NCBI RefSeq assembly: GCF_023156505.1
Contig: NZ_JALNMJ010000001.1
Location: 310,001-374,000, forward strand
DNA length: 64,000 bases
Reading direction: 5' to 3'
From: Roseibium sediminicola
GTDB lineage: Bacteria; Pseudomonadota; Alphaproteobacteria; Rhizobiales; Stappiaceae
Below, piece by piece: positions 13,904 through 17,121 of the stretch (within the stretch, counting starts at the first letter, position 1; the number at the start of each line of letters is the position of its first letter). The notes under the pieces were generated by a model. The model was not told where the DNA came from. It did no database searches and saw only the letters and a list, made by a program, of their open reading frames with translations. Made by a program: the position numbers and the translations under genes.

Positions 13904-13981
13904 GCGTATCTAACGCGGATTTTGGTGCCGCAATAACTTGCGGTATCCTGTCAGCAGCAACTGCGCAATCGGACAGGAAGC

Positions 13982-14161
13982 ATGGATTCGAAGTTGGACG
14001 ATCGACAGCCTCAGCAAAAGCGGCCGGAGGAAACAACGGCCGATACGGCGATCAAGTGCGCACCGGAGGATGATTCCCGCGGGGCGCAACGCAGCATTCG
14101 CGAAATGGTGATCGACAACAACACACGCTTCGCCGCGACGATGAAATCGCTCGGAGAATGA
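13982..14161 (+). CDS. Probable antitoxin of a Doc-type toxin-antitoxin pair
   Basis: A 59-residue, charged, largely unstructured-looking protein encoded directly upstream of doc. Its stop codon overlaps the toxin start in ATGA, the translational coupling typical of type II toxin-antitoxin operons. AGGA-type sequence precedes the ATG. The N-terminal half is Gln/Glu/Asp-rich; the C-terminal half reads NNTRFAATMKSLGE, loosely like the FASLFDTL segment with which Phd binds Doc. I do not recognise an N-terminal DNA-binding fold, so autoregulation is unproven. The antitoxin role is inferred from position, size and overlap. Confidence 0.72.
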   Translation: MDSKLDDRQPQQKRPEETTADTAIKCAPEDDSRGAQRSIREMVIDNNTRFAATMKSLGE

Positions 14162-14565
14162 CGTCTGTCTCTGAGCCCGTGTGGCTGACTTTCGACCAGG
14201 TGACTGAAATGATTGAGGTTGTCGCGGAGCTTTATCCGCGGCACCGCGTGGCGCTTGTGCGCCCGAACGACATGGCGGCAGCGCTCGAGCGTCCCATCAA
14301 CCGCTATCACTATGGCGGTGAAGCAGACGTCTTTTTGCTGGCAAGTGAATTGATTTACGGTGTCGGCAAAGCTCATGCCATGGTGGATGGCAACAAGCGT
14401 ATTGCCTTCATGTCCGCTTTGATCTTTCTGGAGCTGAACGGCATTCGTCTTAACGAGCCTGCTGCCGAATTCTTTGCCGTCTACATCAAGGCATTGATGG
14501 CAGACCGCATCAACTTGCACATGCTCGCCTGTGTGTTCGCTGCATTTGCGGAAACGAACATCTGA
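14158..14565 (+). CDS. doc: Doc/Fic-family toxin (death-on-curing type)
   Basis: A 135-residue Fic-fold protein, close in size to phage P1 Doc (126). The signature HAMVDGNKR at 73-81 matches HxFxDGNKR, with the catalytic histidine H73, D77 and the phosphate-binding N79-K80-R81. P1 Doc phosphorylates elongation factor Tu and stops translation; this protein probably does the same or nucleotidylates a target. The start ATG overlaps the stop of the 59-residue upstream gene. A strong hairpin follows 16 bases after the stop. Phenylalanine in the motif is replaced by methionine, which is tolerated in some relatives. Confidence 0.87.
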   Translation: MTSVSEPVWLTFDQVTEMIEVVAELYPRHRVALVRPNDMAAALERPINRYHYGGEADVFLLASELIYGVGKAHAMVDGNKRIAFMSALIFLELNGIRLNEPAAEFFAVYIKALMADRINLHMLACVFAAFAETNI

Positions 14566-15898: not shown

Positions 15899-16083
15899 CA
15901 GCAAACTTTCATCGTGAAATTACGATCAGAATAGGCTGAAAGCGGGTTTCGGCAAAATGCGTAATTTTGATGAGTGGATCAATAACTGGAATGGGATTGC
16001 AGCTGGTGTAGTCTTCAACCGGCAGAGGCGAGACCTGAACGGCACCACTGTGCATGGCAAAATGCTTTTCGAAGGGGGAGATC

Positions 16084-17121
16084 ATGAAACGCGAGGACGA
16101 ACAGGTAGAAGTCGGTGACACCACGGACCTATTTATCGCGGTGAAAGACGCCTGGGCCAGGCGCAAGCGGCTGGCCGAAGCGCGGCTTTCCTTCGCGGCC
16201 GCGATGGAAAGCTATGCTGTGGGGGATCCGGTTGTTGGATTGGGTCTGTTACTTGAAGCGCTGGAGACGTGCGAGACCGCGGCGCGGCCCGTCGATCTGT
16301 CCGACCCGGGTGCGCGAGACCTCGTGAGAGGGGAGCAGCTGGAGGCTCAGAGCCTTTGCAACACTCTTGTGAGTGTGTTGCCGCTGTTCCAACCCAAACT
16401 GCTTCTTCAGGTTGCCAAGAACGAGTTTGCCAAGGACTTTAAATTTAAGAAGGGTGGTTCGTTCAAGGGCAAGAGGGCCCAGAAACCGACAAGCATTGAC
16501 GATGGCAACGAGATGGAATGGCGGTTTTATGTCGACAAGGCTGTCGCCTGTAAAAAGCTTTGCCTGATCTCGGTGTTTCACTTCAAGGGCAAGGACAAGA
16601 AGATCGTCATACCGGCCAAGAACGGTTTCTCAAAAAGCTATCTGGACGCCAATACCATGCCCAAACATGAAAACACGCTTCCCCATGGCGGCGAGGATGT
16701 GAATGGCTACGGTGTCGACACGCCGTTCTATGATCCATTCTTCGAGCAGCCAGTGAAGTGCCCCTGCTACTTGGGCAGCTACCGGATCAACGAGAAGGGC
16801 AAAAGGGACGACAAGGCCAAAAAGCATATTGGCGGCAGCGATCCCGCAAACGCCCAAAGAACCGGTTTTGTCGAATATTTTGAAACGGCGATCATCTGCC
16901 TGGATAAAAAGCCCTATGTCGTTCTCAACTCCATGAAATGGCGAACGGACGGCAAGAAGGCCGAATTTCTGGACAAGTTTGGGAACCCGACGAAAACGGG
17001 CAAGGTTCAGGACCTCGGAGACGTGAGTGATGCCTTCAAGCGTGCACTGCTGGGCTGGATCAAGCGGGCGAAAAAAGAGCACGGCATCAAGGATATTGAC
17101 TGCGGCAAACTGTTCAAATGA
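16084..17121 (+). CDS. AT-rich orphan gene, unknown function
   Basis: A 345-residue protein I cannot assign. The N-terminal ~100 residues are helical and include AWARRKRLAEARLSF. The rest is rich in Lys with scattered Cys (ACKKLC, CPCYLGSY) and ends in a basic helix. No signal peptide or membrane segment is visible. The start at 16084 has an excellent ribosome site (GGGGGAG, 3 bases away), so translation is likely. Base composition is clearly lower in GC than the surroundings (26 of 60 bases in 16621-16680 are G or C). With the adjacent Doc pair, this suggests horizontal acquisition. Confidence 0.75.
   Translation: MKREDEQVEVGDTTDLFIAVKDAWARRKRLAEARLSFAAAMESYAVGDPVVGLGLLLEALETCETAARPVDLSDPGARDLVRGEQLEAQSLCNTLVSVLPLFQPKLLLQVAKNEFAKDFKFKKGGSFKGKRAQKPTSIDDGNEMEWRFYVDKAVACKKLCLISVFHFKGKDKKIVIPAKNGFSKSYLDANTMPKHENTLPHGGEDVNGYGVDTPFYDPFFEQPVKCPCYLGSYRINEKGKRDDKAKKHIGGSDPANAQRTGFVEYFETAIICLDKKPYVVLNSMKWRTDGKKAEFLDKFGNPTKTGKVQDLGDVSDAFKRALLGWIKRAKKEHGIKDIDCGKLFK

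Follow-up and report, generated by a model that had tools for sequence, protein, structure and literature searches.

Autoregulation by the antitoxin is usually seen as one of the core features of type II toxin-antitoxin modules, and the conditional cooperativity of phd-doc is a textbook case. The target of the Doc toxin of phage P1 is Thr382 of EF-Tu (PMC4803016). According to excerpts of PMC9207808, a peptide covering residues 52-73 of Salmonella Phd is enough by itself to bind Doc (Kd 73 pM), to inhibit the kinase activity and, later than full-length Phd, to rescue growth. A Doc-binding tail can therefore do without a DNA-binding domain. In the Doc complex of E. faecalis (9VZC), residues 52-79 of the antitoxin lie as a bent helix in the toxin's concave face; this tail leaves the Fic motif exposed and stabilises a toxin dimer, and the motif of Doc is given as HXFX(D/N)(A/G)NKR, with F at position 3 (excerpts of PMC13034048). 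Class I Fic antitoxins are characterized by the inhibitory motif (S/T)xxxE(G/N) (PMC3667792). Doc homologues with partners unlike known antitoxins were reported by Fico and Mahillon, without discussion of domain loss in the part of the paper available (PMC1626090), and Makarova et al. include AbrB, xre and YhfG among Doc partners (PMC2701414). Among the titles and abstract openings listed by our literature search, with subscription journals and supplements outside its scope, none describes a Doc antitoxin reduced to its tail.

Here we describe a two-gene locus in a 64,000-nucleotide stretch of Roseibium sediminicola DNA (hereafter the window), in which a 59-residue protein, P0001, is encoded upstream of a Doc-family toxin, P0002 (Table 1). 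We consider it likely that P0001 is a neutralisation-only Doc antitoxin, which does not autoregulate its operon and has probably lost a DNA-binding domain; we infer Doc binding, neutralisation, the state of operon control and the history of loss from the comparisons given below.

Table 1. Features of the Doc locus, in window coordinates.
Feature	Position	Strand	Description
Candidate promoter	13922..13949	+	TTGGTG 13922-13927, 16 nt, TATCCT 13944-13949; by eye, weak evidence
Candidate ribosome-binding site	13975..13980	+	AGGAAG; sequence only
Antitoxin gene (P0001)	13982..14161	+	59 aa, ATG start, TGA stop
Variable N-terminal part, residues 1-36	13982..14089	+	disorder plot; coil in model
Conserved tail, residues 37-59	14090..14158	+	RSIREMVIDNNTRFAATMKSLGE; codon bias, modelled helix 39-58; proposed Doc-binding segment
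Doc-family toxin gene (P0002)	14158..14565	+	135 aa, shares ATGA with antitoxin stop
Fic motif, residues 73-81	14374..14400	+	HAMVDGNKR; invariant H73, G78, N79, K80, R81

The toxin is present in 7 of the 45 genomes of the genus that were searched, and a frame related to P0001 lies directly upstream of Doc in all seven. Residues 1-4 of the antitoxin fit [MV][DEN][STH][KR] in each of these members. Across 21 comparisons, the last 23 codons contain 329 pairwise differences, 250 of them at third, 41 at first and 38 at second codon positions, and for one pair of genomes (G000-G023) the tail has a dN of 0.000 and a dS of 0.325. Between the start signature and the tail, dN/dS values are 0.07/0.176 and 0.058/0.041 in two equal-length genus pairs, and by this measure the N-terminal part is without visible constraint in those pairs. 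On these sequence comparisons the 59-codon frame is real, conserved and under purifying selection. Given the codon-position bias, the start signature and the unconstrained middle, it is very probably translated, with selection falling mainly on the C-terminal segment. The original prediction of an unrecognised antitoxin-like gene next to a Doc toxin is thereby upheld.

The antitoxin gene comes first in all 12 uninterrupted pairs of the family. An ATGA overlap joins the two genes in eight of them (G000, G023, G002, G008, G018, G074, G080 and G084), while the remaining four are separated by gaps of 4 nt (G032), 4 nt (G022), 1 nt (G048) and 105 nt (G082); the strict coupling claimed in the original prediction thus does not hold. 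The frequency of this overlap could indicate that the small gene is a leader peptide that serves translational coupling to the toxin alone, with no role as an antitoxin, a reading that is highly improbable considering that its last 23 codons are constrained at the amino-acid level, that it outlasts the toxin in the five loci described below, and that the tail is still kept in G082, where the genes are 105 nt apart. An imperfect palindrome also spans the ATGA junction (14149-14176 of the window), with overlapping 17-nt arms that are 82% complementary.

The pair is located between glyS and an MFS gene in all seven carriers of the genus, six loci having been read directly and one (G018) deduced from coordinates and printed frames. 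Loci from 30 of the 45 genus genomes were covered in a comparison with the empty site. Among the 24 loci without the pair, the glyS-MFS motif distance is 35-290 bases in 12, as expected for an empty site, and the MFS motif was not found after glyS in 11; in the genome G007, it lies 816 bases after glyS. That locus (L211) contains a frame that is lumazine synthase-like by eye, with the toxin-antitoxin pair absent. A similar extra frame, again by eye, stands between glyS and the pair in L219 (G032) and L229 (G022). In the window itself, a 355-residue frame at 16054-17121 (+) has no Pfam match at E 0.01. This neighbourhood bears on whether a separate repressor, encoded elsewhere, controls the module as in three-component systems, whose antitoxins have no DNA-binding domain (PMC5086665, PMC4803016). 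We regard such a repressor as rather improbable: at the locus itself the neighbours are glyS and the MFS gene, with no regulator, and the genus pairs keep this position with the single extra frame alongside in G032 and G022.

The profile search with the 59-residue sequence suggested in the original prediction returned no credible family match, whether against Pfam, NCBIfam, PHROGs, PADLOC or, as a profile, the PDB. The Pfam scan detected no Phd/YefM DNA-binding domain in P0001 and no MazE/AbrB domain (PF04014) in P0001 or eight relatives. The same library is able to find such domains in small proteins: two Doc partners, 78 and 84 aa long, score above cut-off for PF02604, as do five of the six AbrB-labelled partners scanned for PF04014, and of ten Doc partners of similarly small size, eight have a MazE, Phd/YefM or ribbon-helix-helix domain above cut-off. 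Phd or MazE/AbrB membership of P0001 was ruled out on the absence of these domains. Membership of the class I Fic antitoxins (VbhA/FicA) was likewise rejected, the (S/T)xxxE(G/N) inhibitory motif being absent from P0001 and present in one of 12 family members, outside the conserved tail. Four matches were taken as chance: NCBIfam T3SS WxxxE for P0001 (E 0.11, 12.2 bits vs a cut-off of 38), Pfam MPP6 for one of nine relatives (E 0.0065), and PDB profile matches to unrelated proteins at E 9.7 and 0.088.

AlphaFold run without an alignment models P0001 as coil over residues 1-38 and a single helix over residues 39-58, with a mean pLDDT of 77.1 and block means of 94 for residues 41-50 and 86 for residues 51-59. 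Residues 1-37 have a GRAVY of -1.74 and a Uversky H of 0.31 vs a border of 0.43, which places them on the disordered side, as is the N-terminal part in all 12 family members; this part is also poor in large hydrophobics. Neither the Pfam and NCBIfam scans nor the PDB profile, the model and the disorder plot reveal a recognisable DNA-binding domain in P0001, in agreement with the earlier remark that no DNA-binding fold is evident.

The antitoxin could nevertheless remain in operon control, if its charged disordered N-terminal part, or the antitoxin-toxin complex, binds DNA. The PaaA-ParE complex does partially repress its own operon (PMC4803016). Antitoxins of genera g3 and g7 (G048, G073, G074, G081, G082 and G085) carry a second conserved stretch before the tail, basic and possibly helical (around F/I-S-A-x-E-A-A-x-R), which is not retained in the window's genus. 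Against such a role for P0001 are the unconstrained N-terminal part in the genus, its few large hydrophobics and the control region, where no inverted repeat of at least 8 bases occurs between glyS and the antitoxin start codon, and we judge it unlikely. The candidate promoter pair listed in Table 1 is conserved by eye in G000, G002, G008 and G023; the promoter and terminator consensus scan of the locus reported none, this pair included.

P0002 matches TIGR01550 DOC_P1 at 3.4e-14 (53 bits, cut-off 38.65), Pfam Fic at 2.9e-8, above cut-off, and phrog_577 at 1.2e-19. Its AlphaFold model (pLDDT 93.3) superposes on P1 Doc in complexes with Phd (3dd7, 3k33 and 3kh2) with a TMq of 0.80-0.83 and an rmsd of 1.7-1.8, at 19-20% identity in the structural alignment. 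H73, G78, N79, K80 and R81 of the Fic motif are invariant among 32 aligned Doc sequences. By its profile matches, its Fic-type HxxxxxNKR motif and its predicted Doc fold, P0002 belongs to the Doc toxin family, and by analogy with P1 Doc it is probably an EF-Tu kinase.

A Doc search over 87 genomes of the family gave matches at E 1e-7 or better in 14. The window's clade accounts for 13 of these, with 12 uninterrupted toxins and one that is frameshifted (G073), and the minimal antitoxin is upstream in all 13 loci. The fourteenth genome, G047, belongs to a second short-partner group described below. A class-level search with the antitoxin profile matched 1 of 385 genomes, the window's own, and P0001 had no match in plasmids. 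The antitoxin is kept while the toxin is absent, truncated or frameshifted in five loci (G019, G073, a second copy in G074, G081 and G085), and no uninterrupted toxin of the window's clade without its antitoxin was found among the 87 genomes. This 5:0 bias has a chance of 0.03 if both genes are equally likely to be lost and the loci are independent. Toxin-first decay is the pattern expected of an antitoxin, and is suggestive here, the loci being few and related. The second copy in G074 (L248:1453-1659) is an antitoxin-like frame, its tail longer by three residues, followed by an apparent truncated toxin start, and looks like a decayed copy. In L017 (G085), where part of the flank reads N, the toxin is missing 3' of the antitoxin and the stretch ends with CGATCCACGCCCCCG beside the run of N. 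We take this CGATCCACGCCCCCG stretch to be possibly a CRISPR-like repeat.

The decay at five related loci, together with a Fic motif whose position 3 is M in P0002 and M or L, not F, in all seven genus toxins, could also signify that the pair is a fossil with a degenerate or inactive toxin. This is very doubtful, since all 13 toxins of the clade retain H, D (D77), G, N, K and R in the motif, and 12 toxin frames are uninterrupted, each accompanied by an antitoxin.

We then consider how the conserved tail compares with known Doc-binding segments. Anchored on their last leucine, the tails of MazE/AbrB-type antitoxins have large hydrophobics at positions 0, -3, -7, -10 and -11, a spacing that equals the hot spots L70, L67, H63, M60 and I59 of Salmonella Phd (PMC9207808). 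In the window tail, hydrophobics are found at 0, -3, -7, -13, -14, -15 and -18. Six of these seven positions (0, -3, -7, -14, -15 and -18, with His counted) are common to the E. faecalis tail in 9VZC, for which register 0 was the best of nine in all four family members tested. For the Phd hot spots, register 0 ties with register -4 in three of the four tails tested (window, G048 and G082). At register 0, the counterparts of Phd L70, L67, H63 and F56 in the window would be L57, M54, F50 and V43, and Phd I59 and M60 face the polar N46/N47. The spacing is consistent with the same mode of Doc binding rather than proof of it, because any amphipathic helix shows similar spacing.

A local HMM of AbrB tails could not tell short tails from shuffles, and a C-anchored profile of the tails of MazE/AbrB-type Doc antitoxins was used in its place. 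Four relatives (G073, G074, G080 and G084) outscored every one of 2000 shuffles; among 694 control tails, just two reached their level, both from AbrB-type Doc antitoxins (L073 and L093). The window tail was not significant, being equalled by 141 of 2000 shuffles and 20 of 694 control tails, and for the seven genus tails 43-172 of 2000 shuffles scored as high. Support for Doc binding from the tail profile thus comes from the relatives and not from the window's genus. The loose likeness originally seen between the C-terminal FAATMKSL and the Doc-binding segment of Phd is upheld to the extent that the tail is compatible with Doc binding, and FAATMKSLGE lies within the conserved tail.

To place the pair among other Doc modules, partners were classified at 119 Doc loci, which are the best-scoring ones and no random sample (of 28 loci added by one search, L034 and L042 were left out for displaced frames, and no partner was found at L098). 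Of these partners, 95 are MazE/AbrB-type by motif, 2 Phd and 3 ribbon-helix-helix; the others are 13 minimal antitoxins, 5 other short proteins and 1 unresolved. These labels were given by motif or by eye, and in a Pfam check of ten, eight passed, L104 fell just under the cut-off and L118 was unconfirmed.

A second short-partner group comprises 22 toxins, of which 18 have HxFEQGNKR. Its hosts are Sinorhizobium, Agrobacterium vitis, Rhizobium, Microvirga, other genomes of the order and proviral contigs. In the wider Doc searches, the loci read were 5 of 26 viral ones, eleven from a further locus search and six plasmid regions. By the start codons that we chose, the partners are mostly about 46-105 residues long; some open frames are longer, and those at L163, L165, L167, L192 and L197 span 87-226 codons with an unsure start. 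Eight of them had no match above cut-off in Pfam or NCBIfam, and a PF15163 match to one (E 0.13, below cut-off) was taken as chance. The gene tables of the collection are known to be incomplete, and those of the A. vitis record and of one S. meliloti pSymB record lack the partner frame; in S. medicae and S. meliloti p_3 this frame is annotated as a hypothetical protein. The acidic position of HxFEQGNKR is unlike that of HXFX(D/N)(A/G)NKR (L153-L155, L159, L160, L192-L199 and L201). At many of these loci the toxin starts at a TTG and overlaps the end of the antitoxin gene by 11-14 nt. In L158 (G047), Arg replaces the catalytic His of the motif (RAFEQGNKR) in a frame that is open.

In a tree of 58 toxins, the minimal-antitoxin clade (support 100/99) and the second short group (97/97) each occupy one side of a branch. 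Their union has a support of 87/49, which leaves the sister position unsettled; this tree holds 58 of 137 rows after thinning, without L200, L202, L203 and L204, and its bootstrap was unconverged. An earlier FastTree of 118 toxins joined the two groups with a support of 0.993. A profile comparison of window-clade and second-group antitoxins was in register and not significant (probability 1%, E 0.051). The DNA-binding domain may have been lost once or twice.

We propose that the two genes form a Doc-type toxin-antitoxin module of type II, in which the antitoxin would be cut down to its neutralising segment: some 36 disordered residues followed by a single amphipathic helix at the C-terminus, which ends in L-G-E. 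Like the tails of Phd and the E. faecalis antidote, this helix would bind to Doc on its concave face and so hold the toxin inactive, L57, M54, F50 and V43 taking the positions of Phd L70, L67, H63 and F56. Occlusion of the active site is not to be assumed for the window Doc, because the E. faecalis tail leaves the Fic motif exposed. As it has no DNA-binding domain, the antitoxin would probably be unable to repress its operon or to support conditional cooperativity, which makes autoregulation of the Phd kind unlikely; the promoter, translational coupling and turnover of the antitoxin would then determine dosage. Most likely the lineage goes back to Doc modules whose MazE/AbrB-type antitoxin lost this domain, a direction suggested by MazE/AbrB being the common state among relatives.

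A wider proposition, which we find evenly balanced, is that two Doc lineages have dropped the DNA-binding half of the antitoxin and that the module persists without autoregulation or conditional cooperativity. The neutralising tail would then be the conserved unit, joined elsewhere to MazE/AbrB, Phd or ribbon-helix-helix domains and here standing alone. If true, a natural helix-only Doc lineage would allow a direct test of whether such a module needs autoregulation in order to persist, and antitoxins of the window type would be nature's equivalent of the synthetic Doc-inhibiting Phd peptides. Such short antitoxins would also explain Doc genes with small partners that are annotated as hypothetical or not listed.

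Compared with described systems, the pair resembles the PaaA-ParE and epsilon-zeta three-component systems in having an antitoxin without a DNA-binding domain (PMC5086665, PMC4803016); those systems differ in their toxins and in a third regulator gene, none being seen beside the window pair. As in VbhA-VbhT and FicA-FicT, where a helix inhibits the toxin (PMC3667792), a small antitoxin is encoded upstream of a Fic-fold toxin, although the window protein has no (S/T)xxxE(G/N). The second short-partner Docs also have a short upstream partner with no recognised domain (eight scanned), with tails mostly ending in LAK. They differ from the window's clade in forming a clade of their own (97/97), in the Pro of most tails (RFPKV) and in the shifted acidic residue of the Fic motif, and some of their partners are longer or have an unsure start. 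With Phd-Doc of phage P1 and Salmonella, the locus has in common a Doc-fold toxin and an upstream antitoxin gene, and hot spots L70, L67, H63 and F56 of the Phd tail, which is disordered alone and helical on Doc (PMC9207808), are matched in the window tail; it differs in the missing Phd/YefM domain, in a toxin 19-20% identical to P1 Doc and in the unmatched I59 and M60. The mazE-doc modules (TasAB; E. faecalis Doc and its antidote, 9VZC) have antitoxins that, unlike that of the window, bear an N-terminal MazE/AbrB or related domain and have tails ending in L-A-K vs L-G-E. Their toxins are related to P0002, with 24-35% identity in an alignment that also includes second-group toxins, and the tail spacing of 9VZC is common to the window at 6 of 7 positions.
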